A DNA stretch of 64,000 nucleotides from an uncultured Pelagibacteraceae bacterium (GTDB lineage Bacteria; Pseudomonadota; Alphaproteobacteria; Pelagibacterales; Pelagibacteraceae). Shown here in pieces: positions 8,251 to 15,363 of this stretch. The position numbers and the translations under genes were made by a program. The stretch is from assembly GCA_902571975.1 (NCBI GenBank), contig CACGED010000001.1, forward strand, positions 62,001-126,000. Direction: 5' to 3'. Position 1 is the first letter of the stretch; every line of letters begins with the position of its first letter. The notes under the pieces are model-generated. The model was not told the origin of the DNA, searched no databases, and saw only the letters and a program-made list of their open reading frames with translations.

Positions 8251-8748
8251 TTATTTAAATGTTATAGGACCGACCATTCCACTTTCGTAGTGACCAGGAA
8301 TATTACATGCCATTTCTAAAGAAATATCTTTTGAAAATTTCCAAATAATTTCTCCTGTTTTATTTGGCTCTAGCATTACACTATTTGCGTGTTTGTGGCC
8401 CAATGAATGATCTTTTTTAGACATTTCTTTCATTTTTTTATGATCAATTCGGTCACCTAAAAGAATATCGTGTTCAATTAATCTTGCCATTTCGGGTTGG
8501 TGATCAATATGCATCTTTTTAGTGCCAATATTATATTCATGCACCAGTTCACCTAAATTTTTAACAATTATCTTTACTGTTTCGCCTTTTTTAACTTGAA
8601 TTGAACTTGGTTCATAATAATTGTCATACATCTTTACTTCTATTACTCTAGTAACATCTTTTGGATCGCCCTTAGATCCAATCATCTTCATTGAAGCTGC
8701 ATTTGAGTTAAAGGCGATAAAAATAAATAAAAGTATTAGTTTTTTCAT
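8251..8748 (-). CDS. Periplasmic cupredoxin-like copper protein
   Basis: A 165-residue secreted protein with a signal peptide of about 17 residues ending SNA. The mature part has a plastocyanin/azurin-like fold: NYYEPSSIQVKKGETVKI, the first His ligand in LVHEYNIG, and the C-terminal CNIPGHYESGM that supplies Cys, His and Met of a type 1 copper site. A His-rich insertion (about residues 85-120, containing HKKM and HSLGHKH) could bind extra metal. The start codon overlaps the stop codon of the upstream NTF2-like gene (TAATG), so translation is coupled. It may carry electrons or copper in the periplasm; the partner is not evident. Confidence 0.85.
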   Translation of the reverse strand: MKKLILLFIFIAFNSNAASMKMIGSKGDPKDVTRVIEVKMYDNYYEPSSIQVKKGETVKIIVKNLGELVHEYNIGTKKMHIDHQPEMARLIEHDILLGDRIDHKKMKEMSKKDHSLGHKHANSVMLEPNKTGEIIWKFSKDISLEMACNIPGHYESGMVGPITFK

Positions 8749-9068
8749 TACTTAGGCATTGGTGTTGCGCCAGTCTCTAAACTCATGATTTTTCCATTAT
8801 CGTATTTGTAGACTGCCATTACTGCTTCAACATTTCCATCATCAAATGTTACGAATGCATGGTGTACACCTACTTCATCGTTCTCATATACTACTCTAGT
8901 ATCTCTTTGGTTGATATCTCCGCTCATAGCCCATTTGATCACGTCAGCTTTGCCCAAAGTGTTTCCTGATTTATGCATTTTGAATTTGAAATCATCATGC
9001 AAAAGTTCATTCATAGCTGCCTCGTCTTTATTTTTCAATGCAGCACTGTATTTTTCTAATATTGACAT
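8748..9068 (-). CDS. NTF2-like (SnoaL-type) small protein, paralogue A
   Basis: A 106-residue single-domain NTF2-like protein of the SnoaL/ketosteroid-isomerase fold. The N-terminal helix MSILEKYSAALKNKDEAAMNELLHDDF and the strand-rich end with ETGATPMPK are typical. It is clearly paralogous to the 10037-10363 protein: they share MSILEK, an ENDE-G-H segment followed by VT-DGN-EA, and the ETGAT end. Such domains bind small ligands and may isomerise or hydrate them; no catalytic residues can be assigned. It is coupled to the downstream cupredoxin gene and lies 9 bp downstream of the DUF1330 gene, with CTCCTT (reverse of AAGGAG) as its ribosome-binding site. Confidence 0.75.
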   Translation of the reverse strand: MSILEKYSAALKNKDEAAMNELLHDDFKFKMHKSGNTLGKADVIKWAMSGDINQRDTRVVYENDEVGVHHAFVTFDDGNVEAVMAVYKYDNGKIMSLETGATPMPK

Positions 9069-9077
9069 TTTTCTCCT

Positions 9078-9365
9078 TTATATTCCTTCTATTATCATTC
9101 CATTAGAATCTGCGTTATCTAATCGAATTTGTTTTATTGGTTTATATTCTTCAGAATTATACCATTCCTTTGCTTTCTCGTAACTTGGAAATTTCATCAC
9201 AACTGTCCTTGGATGTTGCCATGAGCCTTCAATTGTCTCACTGGTACCACCTCTCACAAGATACTCCCCACCAAATTTTTCTGCAGTGGGCTTAACTTTG
9301 TTTATGTATTCCTTATAATTTTCAGGATTGTTAACATTAATGTTAAAAATTGCGTAACCATTCAT
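9078..9365 (-). CDS. DUF1330 family protein
   Basis: A 95-residue protein of the DUF1330 family, a ferredoxin-like dimeric alpha/beta-barrel. The pattern is complete: YAIFNINVNNPENYKEY at the start, KFGGEYLVRGG in the middle, then WQHPRTVVMKFPSYEKAKEWYNSEEYKPI. No enzymatic activity is established for the family; related dimeric barrels include monooxygenases and dehydratases. The gene lies 2 bp downstream of the GYD-type gene and 9 bp upstream of NTF2-like paralogue A in a tightly packed leftward cluster. Confidence 0.85.
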   Translation of the reverse strand: MNGYAIFNINVNNPENYKEYINKVKPTAEKFGGEYLVRGGTSETIEGSWQHPRTVVMKFPSYEKAKEWYNSEEYKPIKQIRLDNADSNGMIIEGI

Positions 9366-9367
9366 AA

Positions 9368-9691
9368 TTATTCTCCTGGTTTAATAACAGATTTTGTGGC
9401 ATCTGCAGCGTTTTCAAAAGCTTTATTGTAGTCAATAACTTCATGAACCATTAAATCATCCATAAGACCTGAATTTTTAAAAGCAATCTTCAAGGCAAGC
9501 GCTTGTTCATAATCTCCTTCTACACTTGAGATAACATCAAATCTACCTCTTACCCATTCATAGCTGATCAATTTTAAACCAGCAGCCTCGGTAACTTTCT
9601 TAGTCGATGCATATCTATCTGCAGAAGGATCATTTTGCATTCTTTTCATTAATTCTGCACTTATTTTGCCAATCAAATAAAATCTTGCCAT
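9368..9691 (-). CDS. GYD-domain-like dimeric barrel protein
   Basis: A 107-residue protein resembling the GYD family: MARFYLIGKIS at the start, a middle section with AAGLKLISYEWVRGRFDVISSVEGD, and a helix with ALALKIAF. The GYD name motif is changed to GRFDV. The start is taken as the ATG at 9691, 1 bp after the stop codon of the upstream gene; an in-frame TTG at 9703 would overlap that gene. The fold is probably a ferredoxin-like dimer as in DUF1330. No activity is known. Its place between an unknown 96-residue protein and DUF1330 puts three likely small alpha/beta-barrel proteins side by side. Confidence 0.7.
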   Translation of the reverse strand: MARFYLIGKISAELMKRMQNDPSADRYASTKKVTEAAGLKLISYEWVRGRFDVISSVEGDYEQALALKIAFKNSGLMDDLMVHEVIDYNKAFENAADATKSVIKPGE

Positions 9692-9692
9692 A

Positions 9693-9983
9693 TTACATTT
9701 CAACTTTTGTTAAATCCCAAGCAGTCATTTTGATAACACATTCATCGAAAATTTCCTTTCCAACTGGATGTGTACCAGATATTAGTTCCTTCATTTTTTC
9801 TTCATTGTGAACAAATACCTTAAACATAACACCGCTTTTGTCAGGTATTACCGCTCCTACTGTTTTTTCAGGATAAGCTGCAGATTTTCTTACACTCATG
9901 CCTTCATCTGACTGCATCCATCCCATAAACTTTTCAAACTTGCCTTCTTTTAATTCTGCAAGCACTAACATTTCTTTTTCCAT
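9693..9983 (-). CDS. Unknown small protein, probably an alpha/beta-barrel
   Basis: A 96-residue protein that I do not recognise with certainty. It begins MEKEMLVLAELKEGKFEKFMGWMQSDEG, continues with a segment containing VMFKVFVHNEEKMKELISG, and ends in a strand with DECVIKMTAWDL. The alternation of strand, helix, strand, strand, helix, strand fits a ferredoxin-like fold similar to its neighbours. It has a strong G-rich ribosome-binding site (reverse of CCCCCTT) and is followed after 1 bp by the GYD-type gene, so it is expressed with the small-gene cluster. It contains one Cys and no obvious metal site. Confidence 0.65.
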   Translation of the reverse strand: MEKEMLVLAELKEGKFEKFMGWMQSDEGMSVRKSAAYPEKTVGAVIPDKSGVMFKVFVHNEEKMKELISGTHPVGKEIFDECVIKMTAWDLTKVEM

Positions 9984-10036
9984 TTATTCCCCCTTTTTTT
10001 TATTTATTATTTTAAATCAATCTTATGATTATTCAA

Positions 10037-10363
10037 TTATTTTGGTAATTTGGTTGCACCTGTCTCGACTTCAATGATTTTACCGTCTTTAAACTTCCAA
10101 CAACACATCAAAGCTTCAGTGTTTCCATCTTGATAAGTAACATATGAATGATCAAAACCAATTTCATCATTCTCAAAAAGGATCCTGTATTTTGCGGGAC
10201 TCATCATACCTTTGCTTACAGCTTCAACCATACCTGTCTTACCCATATGGACATATTCTCCTTTAAGATGGGAAAACATTTTGTAGTCATCGTGCACCAG
10301 CTCACCAGCTGCTGCACCATCTTTTTCCATGATTGCTTTGTTTAGTTTTTCTAAAATTGACAT
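10037..10363 (-). CDS. NTF2-like (SnoaL-type) small protein, paralogue B
   Basis: A 108-residue NTF2-like protein and close paralogue of the 106-residue protein at 8748-9068. The shared blocks are MSILEKLNKAI, HDDYK, ENDEIGFDHSYVTYQDGNTEALM and ETGATKLPK. The conservation of the C-terminal half suggests a common ligand or that the two form a heterodimer, but this is inference. It starts 8 bp downstream of the 124-residue NTF2-like gene and is separated by about 50 bp from the next gene of the cluster. Confidence 0.75.
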   Translation of the reverse strand: MSILEKLNKAIMEKDGAAAGELVHDDYKMFSHLKGEYVHMGKTGMVEAVSKGMMSPAKYRILFENDEIGFDHSYVTYQDGNTEALMCCWKFKDGKIIEVETGATKLPK

Positions 10364-10371
10364 TCTGTTCC

Positions 10372-10746
10372 TTACTTCTTCATTGCATTGAACATGCTTA
10401 GTGTATCGTCAAAAGCAATAAACATTGTCAGTTTACCATCATCGCCTACTTCAAAGTAATGACCAAAAATTGTATCCATGCCATCTGCCTTAGCAGTTGC
10501 CTTAACAAAAACTTTGTTTCCCTCGCTAATCATCATATCTGGTGTTACTGAAAAATTACTCCAAAGTTGTGGTACTTGCATCATAGTTTTCATATATGCT
10601 TCTTTGCCTTTATGAGTTCCTGACATTGGATGTTTATCTCCAGGATAAATCCAAGTGATATCATCATGTACCATATCCATAAATGCCTCCATTTCTCCTT
10701 TTCCAAAAAGTTCATATCCTTTTTTAACTACTTCTTTTGCGTCCAT
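10372..10746 (-). CDS. NTF2-like / ketosteroid-isomerase-fold protein, first gene of the small-gene cluster
   Basis: A 124-residue NTF2-like domain: an N-terminal helix with VVKKGYELFGKGEMEAFMDM, then DDITWIYPGDKHPMSGTHKGKEAYMKTM, a pattern usual for SnoaL-like proteins with a His/Trp/Tyr-lined pocket. It is more distantly related to the other two NTF2-like proteins of the cluster than they are to each other. It has a good ribosome-binding site (reverse of CTCCTTT) and is the promoter-proximal gene. A -10 element (TATAAT at 10781-10786 on the minus strand) and a palindrome at 10796-10813 lie just upstream. Confidence 0.78.
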   Translation of the reverse strand: MDAKEVVKKGYELFGKGEMEAFMDMVHDDITWIYPGDKHPMSGTHKGKEAYMKTMMQVPQLWSNFSVTPDMMISEGNKVFVKATAKADGMDTIFGHYFEVGDDGKLTMFIAFDDTLSMFNAMKK

Positions 10747-10829: not shown

Positions 10830-11831
10830 TTATATCCAGTGAGGATAGGGAAGACCTTTTTCTTTTAAAAAAGATTTATTAAACATCTTAGAGTTGTATT
10901 TATCAGATTTATCACAAAGTATTGTTACAATCGTTTTACCTGGACCTAAAAGTTTACCAAGTCTTATTGCTCCAGCAATATTTACACCACAACTTGTACC
11001 TAAACTTAAACCTTCTTTTTCAATTAAATCGAATAGAACAGGTAAAGACTCATGATCACTTATTGAAAATGCTCCATCAATATTTGCTTTTGCAAAGTTT
11101 GCTGTAACTCTACTTGATCCAATACCTTCAGTTATTGAGCCACCTTCACTCTTTAATTCACCATTTTCAATGTAATTATAAAGAGATGAGCCAGTTGGAT
11201 CTGATAAATATATTTTAATATCTTTATTCTTTTCTTTTAAAAAACTACTTACTCCTGCAATTGTACCACCAGTACCAGACGAACATACAAATCCATCAAT
11301 TTTGCCGTCAGTCTGTTCCCATATTTCTGGCCCAGTTGTTTCATAATGACCTTTTGAATTCGCAGTATTGTCAAATTGATTAGCCCAAACTACACCGTGA
11401 TTGTTACTACTTTTCAATTCATCGGCCAACCTTCCAGCATATTTAACAAAGTTATTTTCATCTTTATAAGGTTTTGGTGGAACCAACCTTAAATCAGCTC
11501 CAATATTTCTTAATAAATCTTTTTTTTCTTGTGTTTGATTATCGTTCATTACAATAATAGTTTTATAACCAATAGAATTTCCTAAAAGACATAATCCAAT
11601 TCCAGTATTACCTGCAGTTCCTTCAACAATTGTTCCACCTTTTGAAATTAGTTTTTTTTCTTCAGCATCTCTTATTAAAGCTAGAGCCGCTCTATCTTTT
11701 ACAGAGCCTCCTGGATTTAGGTACTCTGCTTTTCCATAAATATTACAACCAGTAATTTCTGATGCAGCTTTTAATTTAAATAAAGGGGTGTTTCCTATTG
11801 CTTCGACAAAATTATTTTGTAAAGTTTTCAT
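10830..11831 (-). CDS. cysK: Cysteine synthase (O-acetylserine sulfhydrylase)
   Basis: A 333-residue PLP enzyme that makes cysteine from O-acetylserine and sulfide. The N-terminus [15 protein letters not shown], the PLP-lysine motif [10 protein letters not shown] (Lys about 45), the substrate loop EGTAGNTG and the phosphate-binding loop [10 protein letters not shown] are all present. The gene overlaps the stop of cysE by 4 bp (ATGA), so the acetyltransferase and synthase are translated together. It is the last gene of a leftward sulfur unit that begins with sulfide:quinone oxidoreductase, suggesting that the same sulfide pool is either oxidised or assimilated. A specialised cystathionine beta-synthase-like enzyme is a less likely alternative. 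Confidence 0.9.
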
Positions 11832-12409
11832 ACATCAAGCTTTGTATCACCCCCTGGTGCAACACCATAGGGTTTAAATTCTTCGGATGCAGTTCCAACA
11901 TTTTTTGCAGGAATTCCAACCATTACTGCGTTTTCTGGAACATCTTTTGTAACAACAGCATTAGCTCCAATTTTTGCATTTTTACCAACCACAACTGGTC
12001 CAAGTATTTGTGCACCAGAACCTACTACAACATTTTCTTTTAGCGTTGGGTGTCTCTTAACATTTCTTTGATCATCTGAATTAATACTCGGAGCAATTCC
12101 ACCTAATGTTGCCATGTGATAGATGGTTACGTTATCTCCAATATCAGAAGTTTCCCCTATAACCACTCCCATACCATGATCTATAAAAAGATTTTTTCCA
12201 ATTTTAGCATTAGGATGAATTTCTATACCTGTTAGAAACCTTGAGAACTGAGAAATTATTCTTGCAACGAGATGAAATTTTGCAATCGAAAAAAAATTTG
12301 CAATTCGATGAAAAAATACAGCTTTAACACCAGGATAGGTAAGTATTAAACTTAACTTTGATCTTGCAGCTGGATCTCTTTTAATTATCGATTCTAAAAA
12401 ATCATTCAT
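11828..12409 (-). CDS. cysE: Serine O-acetyltransferase, short form
   Basis: A 193-residue serine acetyltransferase of the short type found in many bacteria: an N-terminal helical part with [28 protein letters not shown], then the left-handed beta-helix of hexapeptide repeats with [19 protein letters not shown] (catalytic His and Asp region), and [20 protein letters not shown]. It transfers acetyl from acetyl-CoA to serine, giving the acceptor used by CysK. The cysK start overlaps its 3' end by 4 bp. The C-terminal tail is short but long enough to reach the CysK active site in a synthase complex (inference). Confidence 0.93.
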
Positions 12410-12439: not shown

Positions 12440-12550
12440 CTACTTGTTACAACAGCAGTTTTCTGATGATGGTTTGCAATCACAATTTTTACAAACGTAT
12501 CTGTCACAAGAACAGTTTTTACATTTACAGTGTGAATTATTGCATGCCAT
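12440..12550 (-). CDS. Cysteine-rich metallothionein-like microprotein (36 aa, 11 Cys)
   Basis: An ATG-initiated frame of 36 codons with 11 cysteines: Cys at positions 3, 8, 10, 13, 15, 20, 23, 25, 32, 33 and 34, in CKCKNCSC, CKNCDC and CCC clusters, plus one His, with Lys and Asn as the main other residues. That density of CxC and CxxC pairs is what metal-thiolate cluster proteins show; it is unlikely by chance in AT-rich DNA because TGT/TGC must recur. It lies between the persulfide dioxygenase and cysE in the same direction. No Shine-Dalgarno is seen; the start codon follows directly after an inverted repeat (12552-12600). Function in metal, sulfide or persulfide binding is inference; I do not recognise the exact family. 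Confidence 0.65.
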   Translation of the reverse strand: MACNNSHCKCKNCSCDRYVCKNCDCKPSSENCCCNK

Positions 12551-12551
12551 A

Positions 12552-12600
12552 AGGGTTATATAATTGTATATTTTTTAAAAACAATACTAATAATAACCCT
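12552..12600 (-). promoter_or_regulatory. Inverted repeat in front of the cysteine-rich microprotein
   Basis: AGGGTTAT at one end and ATAACCCT at the other form 8-bp arms around a 33-bp AT-rich middle that can add an inner ATTGT/ACAAT stem. On the minus strand the structure ends 2 bases before the microprotein's start codon. It could be an RNA hairpin controlling translation or a bipartite protein site; neither is proven. Confidence 0.4.
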
Positions 12601-12604
12601 GATT

Positions 12605-13297
12605 TTAGAGTTCTTTAAGGGTTAATCCCTTTAAATTTGCAGGAACTGCAATATCCATCATTTTTGGATTAGCAAGATTAAGATTATCCATTATTTCAGC
12701 ATATTCCTCTTTTGAGCTAACTTGTAATCGAGGATTATTACTTTTTTCACTACCAATTGTGGAGTTTTTTTTCCCATTATAATCGTGAGCAGGATAAACA
12801 AGTGTTTCTTCTGGAAGTTTTAAAAGTTTACCAAATAATGAATCATAAGCCTCATGAGCACTACCATTTTGAAAGTCAGTTCTTCCAGTACCATTTATTA
12901 AAAGAGTATCGCCTGTAAAAACTCTATCATTCATTAAGTAACTATATGAACAATCTGTATGACCGGGAGTATAAATAGCTTTTAGCTCAATATTCTCGAT
13001 ATTTATATTTTCTTCATCTTTCAACTTTATATCAATAACTTCAGATTTAGAGTTTTCACCCATTATACGCACACATTTAGTTCTTTCATTAAGTTCATTT
13101 AATCCAGTTACATGATCTGCATGAATATGAGTATCAATTACTTTTACAAGTTTTAGATCTAAATTTTCTAAAACTTTTATGTATTCATCAGTATGCTCAA
13201 TTACTGGATCTATGATTAATGCCTCACGTCCTTTTCCACTAGAAATAATATAAGTATAAGTCGAGGATTTAGTATCAAATAGTTGTTCAAAAATCAT
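12605..13297 (-). CDS. Persulfide dioxygenase (ETHE1-like metallo-beta-lactamase fold)
   Basis: A 230-residue member of the ETHE1/SdoA branch of the metallo-beta-lactamase superfamily, which oxidises glutathione persulfide to sulfite. Iron-site motifs are present: THIHADHVTGL, YTPGHTDCSY and the Asp in VFTGDTLLINGTGRTDFQNG, the last matching the ETHE1 pattern closely; YPAHDYNG supplies the final His. It lies 35 bp downstream of the sulfide:quinone oxidoreductase gene, the standard partner that makes the persulfide. The related blh/gloB-type hydrolases lack the GTGRTDFQ signature, so those are less likely. Confidence 0.88.
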   Translation of the reverse strand: MIFEQLFDTKSSTYTYIISSGKGREALIIDPVIEHTDEYIKVLENLDLKLVKVIDTHIHADHVTGLNELNERTKCVRIMGENSKSEVIDIKLKDEENINIENIELKAIYTPGHTDCSYSYLMNDRVFTGDTLLINGTGRTDFQNGSAHEAYDSLFGKLLKLPEETLVYPAHDYNGKKNSTIGSEKSNNPRLQVSSKEEYAEIMDNLNLANPKMMDIAVPANLKGLTLKEL

Positions 13298-13332: not shown

Positions 13333-14574
13333 CTAATTTTCAATAGCTTTATGATTAGGCTTGCTCCATTCTTTTCCTTTAAACATTACATTCCATTGTA
13401 ACCAAGGAAAAAGCTTTGATTTCATTTGCCAATATAAAGAACTAGGTTTTGTTGGGTCAAAAGGCAAACTTGGAGTTACTTTTCCACCATAACAAAATTC
13501 TGCTAACATGACTTTACCATATGCAACTGTAAGAGGGCAGGCTCCATATCCATCATAAAGTCTATATGCTTCAGATGACTTATTGATATCTTTAATAATA
13601 TTATGAGCAACTATTGGAGCTTGTTTTCTTACTGCTGCTCCTGTTTTTGCATTAGGTGCATTCATTACATCACCCAAACTGTATATATTTTCATATTTAG
13701 TATGTCTTAATGTTCCTTCTTTATGATCTACATCAACCCATCCACCAGCATCAGCTAATGGGCTATTCTTAATAAAGTCTGGAGATGTTTGAGGTGGTGT
13801 TACATGTATAAAATCAAATTTCTTTGTAACCTCTTTAGAATTTCCATCTTTATCTGATTGTTTAAATACAGCCTCTTTGGCCTCACCATTTACTGAAATT
13901 AAATTATGCTGGAAGCTTCTTTTAATACCATACGAGTCACATATTTCATTAAGTGGACCTTGAAAGTGAGGCACACCAAAAATAACTGGTTTTGCACATA
14001 AAAATTCTAAATTACTATCTTTAAGAGCTCCTTTTTTCTTTAAGTGATCAGCAGCTAAGTAAGCTATTTTTTGAGGTGCTCCTGCACACTTAATTGGCAT
14101 TGGAGGTTCAGTAAATAATAAATTTCCTCCCTGCAAATTCTTTAAACATTCCCATGTATAAACAGCCATATCGGAACTGTAATTGGTACAAACATTATTT
14201 TTTCCTAAAGTTTCTTTTAACCCTGCCACTCCATCAAAGTTAATTTTTAGACCAGGACAAACTACTAAATAATCATAAGAATATTCACCACCTGAAGTCT
14301 TTACCGAATTAGACTCAGGAGAAAAACTTTCAGCATATTCTTTAATCCAATTAACATAACTAGGCATTACAGATGACATTGGTTTTATAGTGCTGTTTAC
14401 ATCATAAGCACCTGCACCTACTAAAGTCCATGCTGCTTGATATAAAGATTTTTCAGAAGGTTCTATAATTGATATTGATAAGTCAGACTTTAAACTTTTA
14501 AGTCTTGTGGCAACTGATATACCAGCGCATCCGCCACCGATAATCAAAATATTTGAGTGATTAGAGTTATTCAT
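13333..14574 (-). CDS. sqr: Sulfide:quinone oxidoreductase, type II (SQOR-like)
   Basis: A 413-residue FAD enzyme of the membrane periphery that oxidises sulfide and passes electrons to quinone. The dinucleotide fold IIGGGCAGIS starts at residue 11. The two redox cysteines typical of SQOR-like enzymes are visible: Cys163 in PPMPIKCAGAPQKIAYL, and the second in GYGACPLTVAYGKVMLAEF near residue 350. The amphipathic C-terminus with SKLFPWLQWNVMFKGKEW is the membrane-anchoring region. It heads a leftward unit with the persulfide dioxygenase. Its spacer to the divergent peroxiredoxin gene is 129 bp. Confidence 0.9.
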   Translation of the reverse strand: MNNSNHSNILIIGGGCAGISVATRLKSLKSDLSISIIEPSEKSLYQAAWTLVGAGAYDVNSTIKPMSSVMPSYVNWIKEYAESFSPESNSVKTSGGEYSYDYLVVCPGLKINFDGVAGLKETLGKNNVCTNYSSDMAVYTWECLKNLQGGNLLFTEPPMPIKCAGAPQKIAYLAADHLKKKGALKDSNLEFLCAKPVIFGVPHFQGPLNEICDSYGIKRSFQHNLISVNGEAKEAVFKQSDKDGNSKEVTKKFDFIHVTPPQTSPDFIKNSPLADAGGWVDVDHKEGTLRHTKYENIYSLGDVMNAPNAKTGAAVRKQAPIVAHNIIKDINKSSEAYRLYDGYGACPLTVAYGKVMLAEFCYGGKVTPSLPFDPTKPSSLYWQMKSKLFPWLQWNVMFKGKEWSKPNHKAIEN

Positions 14575-14703: not shown

Positions 14704-15363
14704 ATGTTAAAAATAAACAGTATGTGTCCTGATTTTCAATGCAAAACTACAGAAGGAGATATCTCCTTTCATGAGTGGCTTGGAGATAGTTGGGGCGTAT
14801 TATTTTCTCACCCAAAAGATTTTACACCAGTTTGTACAACAGAATTAGGTTCATTAGGACAAATGAAAGCTGAGTTTGATGCAAGAAATGTAAAAGTAAT
14901 CGGACTAAGTGTAGATGGGGTTGAGGATCACAAAAAATGGTTAGAAGATATCAAAGATGTATCTGGAACTATGCCAGATTATCCTATTATCGCTGACGAA
15001 GACTTAAAGGTTGCAAAACTTTTCAATATGTTAGAAGGCGATGCAGGAACAACTTCAATGGGAAGAACAGCAGTTGATAATGAGACTGTTAGAACTATTT
15101 TTGTTGTAAGACCAGATAAAAGAATTGGTCTTTATTTAACTTATCCAATGGCTACAGGTAGAAATTTCCATGAAATTTTAAGAGCCATAGATTCAATGCA
15201 ACTAACTGCAAAACATAGAGTTGCTACTCCAGCTAATTGGAAAAAAGGTGAAGATGTAGTTATTCTTCCTGCTGTAAAAGATGAAGAAGCTAAAAAAATA
15301 TACCCAGATGGTTGGGAAACAGTTAAACCTTACTTAAGAAAAGTTCCAGATCCTACTAAGTAA
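14704..15363 (+). CDS. 1-Cys peroxiredoxin (Prx6-type)
   Basis: A 219-residue peroxiredoxin with the peroxidatic Cys44 in HPKDFTPVCTTELG and the long C-terminal domain (from about residue 160) typical of Prx6/AhpC2-type enzymes. It reduces H2O2 or organic peroxides; the usual resolving Cys of 2-Cys enzymes is absent, although two extra cysteines sit near the N-terminus at 8 and 13. It has its own strong promoter and ribosome-binding site, and a bidirectional hairpin terminator lies behind it. The position next to sqr fits a joint response to sulfide and oxidants, but that is inference. Confidence 0.93.
   Translation: MLKINSMCPDFQCKTTEGDISFHEWLGDSWGVLFSHPKDFTPVCTTELGSLGQMKAEFDARNVKVIGLSVDGVEDHKKWLEDIKDVSGTMPDYPIIADEDLKVAKLFNMLEGDAGTTSMGRTAVDNETVRTIFVVRPDKRIGLYLTYPMATGRNFHEILRAIDSMQLTAKHRVATPANWKKGEDVVILPAVKDEEAKKIYPDGWETVKPYLRKVPDPTK

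Follow-up and report, generated by a model that had tools for sequence, protein, structure and literature searches.

The window, by which we mean the whole 64,000-nucleotide stretch of DNA from an uncultured Pelagibacteraceae bacterium that was analysed here, contains a short minus-strand frame that runs from ATG to TAG over 36 codons and reads MACNNSHCKCKNCSCDRYVCKNCDCKPSSENCCCNK followed by the stop. Eleven of its 36 residues are Cys (positions 3, 8, 10, 13, 15, 20, 23, 25, 32, 33 and 34). A first-pass annotation of the same DNA had reported an ATG frame of 36 codons, 11 of them for Cys in CxC, CxxC and CCC arrangements, lying on the same strand as its neighbours between a persulfide dioxygenase gene and cysE. 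Our reading of the minus strand confirmed both the frame and its setting, all of these genes being encoded on that strand. The frame, which we call MT, is preceded by genes for a persulfide dioxygenase (PDO) and a sulfide:quinone oxidoreductase (SQR), and is followed by the cysteine synthesis genes cysE and cysK, the second of which overlaps the end of the first by 4 nt (Table 1). At 8748-10746, also on the minus strand, lie six consecutive small frames of 95-124 aa that by eye have a SnoaL/NTF2-like and DUF1330-like appearance.

Table 1. Features at and around MT in the window
Feature	Position	Strand	Evidence
Predicted metallothionein-like gene (MT)	12440..12550	-	36 codons + TAG, 11 Cys; intact in 90 loci
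cysE, serine O-acetyltransferase, downstream cistron	11828..12409	-	TIGR01172 214.1 bits, cut-off 210.65; NF041874 225.7 over 150
cysK, cysteine synthase A	10830..11831	-	NF007989 517.1 bits, cut-off 387
ETHE1-type persulfide dioxygenase (PDO)	12605..13297	-	PDB 4chl (ETHE1) E 1.7e-50; 4ysb E 3e-70
SQOR-type sulfide:quinone oxidoreductase (SQR)	13333..14574	-	6oi5 E 6.9e-99
1-Cys-type peroxiredoxin, divergent, context only	14704..15363	+	AhpC-TSA and 1-cysPrx_C above Pfam cut-offs
Promoter-like element	12555..12584	-	-35 TTGTTT 12584-12579, 18 nt spacer, -10 TATAAC 12560-12555; consensus match only
Weak AU-only stem-loop	12423..12442	-	begins at MT stop codon; TAGTTA/TAACTA

The window holds 405 frames that start with ATG and encode 15-80 aa; among them MT had a Cys fraction of 0.31, against 0.21 for the runner-up. 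When 40 windows were simulated with a first-order Markov model, the top Cys count among frames of 20-50 aa was 4-7 per window and, since the simulated maximum was 7 Cys and MT has 11, we consider chance to be excluded. The idea that MT is a chance or non-coding frame could still appeal to the failure of family models to match it (see below); it is opposed by this chance test, by the conservation of the frame and by the omega values at its codons, and has next to no probability.

The 90 loci yielded 79 distinct coding sequences and 71 distinct peptides, distinct sequences being counted because some genomes occur twice, once as a named locus and once under a G handle. Across these peptides, which range from 36 to 44 aa with 10-13 Cys and a conserved CxC/CxxC/CCC spacing, 11 core columns are each Cys in 70 or 71 of the 71, and 68 of the 71 carry 11 or 12 Cys in all. 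The metallothionein-like Cys spacing proposed in the first-pass annotation is thus conserved in relatives. Several other residues are conserved as well, namely N5 (68 of 71 peptides), P27 (65), N12 (62) and D16 (58). The window copy has 11 Cys where those of close relatives mostly have 12; at its codon 18 (12497-12499) it encodes Tyr, at a position that is Cys in every one of the 70 other distinct peptides. A 44-aa variant with 13 Cys, in which a Cys-rich stretch has been inserted, was seen at locus L142 (5758 onward); metallothioneins gain further Cys-rich stretches, as the L142 lineage does.

The substitution pattern likewise bore out the synonymous bias that had been suggested as a check. 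Cys codons vary synonymously while the Cys is retained, with omega of 0-0.026 for frames of lengths 36-38; at length 39, pS was saturated and pN was 0.025, so that omega is not computable. At non-Cys codons, omega was 0.30, 0.22, 0.37 and 0.45 for lengths 36, 37, 38 and 39, respectively, against medians of 0.72-0.80 in neutral simulations of AT-rich composition, in which values at or below those observed occurred in 5/200, 0/200, 10/199 and 3/200 runs. Purifying selection on the non-Cys positions is therefore moderate, and borderline at length 38. Frameshifts or stops in relatives, which the first-pass annotation had named as what would speak against the frame, did not appear: no broken copy was found among the loci examined.

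When the peptide was used as the query, 26 of 397 Candidatus Pelagibacteraceae genomes gave nominal matches, of which 10 were judged on reading to be chance and excluded, leaving 16 real copies. A profile built from these 16 matched 33 of the 397 family genomes, 32 of them credibly; G245 was excluded (E 0.19, internal stop). The 32 comprise 24 genomes of the window's genus, six of genus g4 and one each of g3 and g14. An order-level sample of 297 genomes, which overlaps the family sample, gave 37 matches, 35 of them credible (G482 and G448, with E 0.41 and 0.48, were excluded). In a class-level sample of 289 genomes only the window's own genome and a chance match, G732 (E 0.09), were recovered, and in a phylum-level sample of 249 genomes only the window's own genome was credible, with none outside the family; these last two samples overlap, each includes the window's own genome, and the class sample holds at least two further family members. 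Among family genomes that are at least 90% complete, 16 of 140 had an MT match; of the single-contig genomes among the rows listed, none of seven had a credible one. MT is therefore a conserved gene in part of Candidatus Pelagibacteraceae (SAR11), found here in that family only. Most of the 80 named PDO loci described below carry the label uncultured Pelagibacteraceae, which likewise places the host group in SAR11; the AG- and AH- isolates among them we take to be single-cell genomes. Since four genera carry MT, the gene is probably old and has been lost several times.

MT matches no known family. None of 12 MT-bearing genomes had a match to PF02069 (Metallothio_Pro) over cut-off, and none lay at the MT locus, the two sub-cut-off matches being elsewhere; the same search was positive in four of 14 control genomes, Synechococcus elongatus among them, and over cut-off in one. 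None of 38 aligned members matched any Pfam family, and against NCBIfam the same 38 gave nothing meaningful, in a search whose HMMER filters may hide weak matches of such biased sequences. Solved metallothioneins showed no sequence match to the peptide, and the best PDB profile match, to LDL-receptor class A repeats, had an E of 0.11 and was treated as chance. A phage origin was considered and rejected: tblastn of phage records with MT, run with the low-complexity filter on, gave no match, the window peptide had no match in PHROGs, and two pattern scans of viral contigs returned 1 and 26 stretches, none of which was credible in a profile search of the 27 loci (best E 0.016, from peptides that have only the searched motif in common). 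A structure model built from five sequences had a mean pLDDT of 55.6, which would be compatible with an unmetalated MT and proves nothing.

MT nevertheless has the sequence features by which the metallothionein class is recognised, being short, very high in Cys and rich in CxC, CxxC and CC motifs. SmtA has an N-terminal CxCxxC motif. MT resembles SmtA and BmtA (PF02069) in being small and Cys-rich with an N-terminal CxCxxC and in being presumed to be a cytoplasmic metal-thiolate peptide; it differs from them in its length of 36-44 aa with mostly 11-12 Cys, in the absence of a conserved His and in its failure to match PF02069. The alpha domain of vertebrate metallothioneins (Zn4S11), which has CxC motifs and adjacent Cys, shares with MT the number of 11 Cys, a ligand number that would suit one four-metal cluster, whereas MT shows no sequence match to it and has another spacing and another gene context. 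On these grounds MT appears to represent a metallothionein-like family distinct from those described.

Turning to the neighbourhood, 26 of the 32 family genomes with a credible MT have the order PDO-MT-cysE-cysK. We also compared named PDO loci, namely the best 80 of 523 relatives, a set that was fetched by PDO and is biased towards relatives of the window. Of these best 80 of 523, 49 have an intact MT between PDO and cysE, 22 have PDO and cysE with MT cleanly absent, and eight have PDO with neither cysE nor MT (the loci in which neither adjoins PDO are L087, L088, L089, L096, L098, L103, L125 and L131); L115, which stops at a contig end, was counted separately. Thus MT usually adjoins pdo and cysE in relatives, which the first-pass annotation had proposed to check. 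Within the same best 80 of 523, the gap between PDO and cysE was 195-213 nt in 47 of the 49 loci with MT and 251 and 322 nt in the other two, the value of 322 nt, in L126, being due to a late tblastn start of cysE; in the 22 loci without MT it was 23-51 nt. Merging identical proteins reduced the 71 loci that have PDO, cysE and cysK to 65 distinct rows (48 with MT and 17 without), and on a PDO+CysE tree of these rows the presence of MT changed at least five times, four of the changes being forced by well-supported branches, compared with a mean of 15.2 when presence was shuffled.

Genus g4 offers a different setting. Three of its genomes have the order MT-cysE-msrB and three others have MT-msrB, with no pdo within the 10 kb examined. 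In the MT-msrB genomes (G273, G305 and G227) the two genes are 3 nt apart; these genomes are 70-80% complete and gave no match to cysE, so that its absence is likely, not certain. PDO-like matches across the six g4 genomes were of 36-40% identity in four and lacking in two; of the three genomes without a cysE match, two had no PDO-like match and one had a match of 36%. All three g4 msrB copies tested (L054, L056 and L058) scored above the TIGR00357 cut-off. At L053-L058, the divergent neighbour of MT is a frame of 810 aa that combines FAD-oxidase and GcvT-like parts, and further frames resemble, by eye, an electron-transfer-flavoprotein pair and CcdA.

These two settings bear on the suggestion that MT carries sulfide or persulfide, passing SQR-made sulfane sulfur to PDO or CysK. 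The neighbours of MT in the window do belong to the families of the SQOR-ETHE1 sulfide oxidation pair, and the frequency with which MT sits between PDO and cysE, in the family genomes and in the 49 PDO-fetched loci alike, is in keeping with such a role. So is the finding that, in the best 80 of 523, SQR is present at 21 of the 49 MT-bearing PDO-cysE loci versus one of the 22 without MT (19/42 versus 1/19 when at least 4 kb lies before PDO), a raw association that favours a link to sulfide. Moreover, mammalian metallothioneins can hold sulfane sulfur on Cys and bind zinc through it, according to passages of PMC12618007. Against a carrier, 23 of the 42 MT-bearing loci that have 4 kb or more ahead of PDO show no SQR (best 80 of 523), the 22 PDO-cysE-cysK units of that set do without MT, and on the tree the association reduces to at most five independent pairs that show no trend and are too few to tell. 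MT is also independent of both enzymes of the pair: they are absent nearby in some loci, or a close PDO is missing from the available assembly, as in g4, which keeps MT without a close PDO; three of its genomes also give no cysE match. We therefore regard a carrier as very unlikely, and the dedicated route from SQR/PDO to CysK put forward in the first-pass annotation is unsupported; MT may still be a general buffer for metal, sulfide or persulfide.

The g4 arrangement raises a second alternative, in which metal-free MT serves as a reductant, for MsrB in g4 and elsewhere for the peroxiredoxin encoded near PDO. MT is directly linked to msrB in G273, G305 and G227, a passage of a review (PMC6316033) credits thionein, in its metal-free form, with the ability to reduce human MsrB2 and MsrB3, and all 49 MT-bearing named loci (best 80 of 523) have a peroxiredoxin gene. 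The peroxiredoxin, however, accompanies 77 of the 80 PDO loci of that same set, MT being present or absent, and the chief linkage of MT is to cysE rather than msrB. A reductant of this kind thus seems highly improbable.

Upstream of MT, the -10 hexamer of the promoter-like element in the window ends 4 nt before the ATG. The placement recurs: in 48 of 69 distinct upstreams, 4-7 nt separate the end of the best -10 from the MT ATG, compared with 0/195 control upstreams (PDO 61, cysE 57, cysK 49, SQR 17, peroxiredoxin 11). A looser test, in which five of six positions of TATAAT had to match and the hexamer to end 3-9 nt before the ATG, gave 51/69 for MT versus 31/195 for the controls (PDO 11/61, cysE 15/57, cysK 1/49, SQR 2/17, peroxiredoxin 2/11). 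The promoter match score itself was unexceptional (mean 8.38 for MT, 7.42 for shuffled sequence and 9.13 for PDO), and a general promoter scan of the region found 20 sites versus 19.9 in shuffled sequence, with the MT element not among them. No Shine-Dalgarno-like motif precedes MT in any of the 69 upstreams; PDO, cysE and SQR mostly lack one too. Since the -10 almost touches the ATG, the MT mRNA is probably leaderless. At the loci without MT (L104-L143), the cysE ATG is often closely preceded by a stretch resembling TATATA or TATAAA (by eye, unscored), as if the promoter had been kept and the MT frame lost, with cysE now the leaderless first gene; this weakened the idea that a promoter and gene move together as a cassette. 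Ahead of the window MT lies an inverted repeat, GGGTTAT/ATAACCC, which was considered as an operator and set aside, as its second arm is lacking from most of the upstreams listed (by eye).

A leaderless, Cys-rich frame ahead of sulfur genes recalls the polycysteine leaderless frames of mycobacteria, which, in the passages of PMC9094748 that describe them (the work is also cited in PMC13236596), are cysteine-responsive attenuators. By this analogy MT might be a leader whose Cys codons, above all the CCC, sense cysteinyl-tRNA and set the expression of cysE-cysK, with the peptide as a by-product. Beyond the probable lack of a leader, the recurrent placement of the -10 and the sulfur genes downstream, the likeness extends to a run of Cys close to the stop: in 88 of 90 loci no more than 0-3 residues separate the CCC from the MT stop, and cysE, where its start was found, begins 25-38 nt past that stop. 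Weak AU-only stem-loops also recur in the gap between MT and cysE, where 53 distinct gaps had a mean folding z of -1.20, with 13 of 53 at p<0.05. Their sequences differ (TAGTTA/TAACTA, TTTTTAG/CTAAAAA, ATTTAAAT and GTTTTTG/CAAAAAC pairs).

Several observations oppose this account. The gap stem-loops vary in position between groups and are inconstant relative to the cysE start, six of the 53 gaps, including all three from g4, fold to nothing, and wider folds (MT with 75 nt, and the junction) were no more structured than expected, with mean z of -0.24 and -0.25 (n=79). MT seems to lack a consistent attenuator structure, in contrast to the mycobacterial frames, from which it also differs in that its Cys spacing is conserved along the entire frame; the eight Cys distant from the stop are conserved equally with the CCC. 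Furthermore, a leader frame is expected to show no selection outside the sensed codons, whereas the non-Cys omega of MT falls in the lowest 0-5% of neutral simulations, and MT is retained before msrB in the three genomes without a cysE match. Taken together, these points make it unlikely that MT acts as a cysteine-responsive leader.

The reading that we favour on balance is that MT founds a new metallothionein-like family, acting as a metal-thiolate buffer that is made together with cysteine enzymes. Its support comes from the conservation of the frame and its Cys, the all-or-none pattern of the gap between PDO and cysE, the added Cys-rich stretch in L142 and the retention of MT before msrB; it is weakened by the absence of MT from most relatives, by the lack of a match to known metallothioneins, by the moderate non-Cys selection and by the features that MT has in common with a cysteine-sensing leader, its main rival, and no metal regulator was noticed next to MT. 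The peptide, which is presumably cytoplasmic, would use its thiolates to hold some four divalent ions (Zn, Cd), or else several Cu(I), judging from its 11-12 Cys. The four-metal figure follows the Zn4S11 cluster, likewise with 11 ligands, which parts of PMC12618007 describe for animal metallothioneins. MT would then buffer these metals and act as a thiol and redox reserve; standing first on an mRNA with the cysteine synthesis genes, it would let the peptide and the cysteine that it uses rise jointly, and where a cell also has SQR and PDO, the thiolates of MT could additionally carry sulfane sulfur. For Pseudomonas aeruginosa, a portion of PMC13256707 speculates that the metallothionein PmtA depends on CysE, and in marine Synechococcus the metallothionein BmtA is held, in passages of PMC9337993, to permit the safe accumulation of zinc. 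A dual role would combine two of the readings above: leaderless translation of MT would report cysteine supply to cysE-cysK, and its product would be a metallothionein holding zinc and the sulfane sulfur of SQR and PDO. We think this quite improbable; if true, it would join metal, sulfide and cysteine status in a single 36-codon cistron of abundant ocean bacteria.

In the open-licence literature on metallothionein with SAR11, Pelagibacter or a cysE/cysK operon, the MT gene is undescribed as far as titles and some passages go, and searches of that literature for SAR11 with cysteine-rich small proteins returned nothing. A Pfam-profile survey credits Candidatus Pelagibacter ubique with few detoxification systems, according to passages of PMC4161860. 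MT offers contrasts in its repeated clean absence, its probable leaderless start and its settings in a cysE unit and an msrB unit, and the presence of such a gene in part of SAR11 would alter the description of metal and sulfur handling there.
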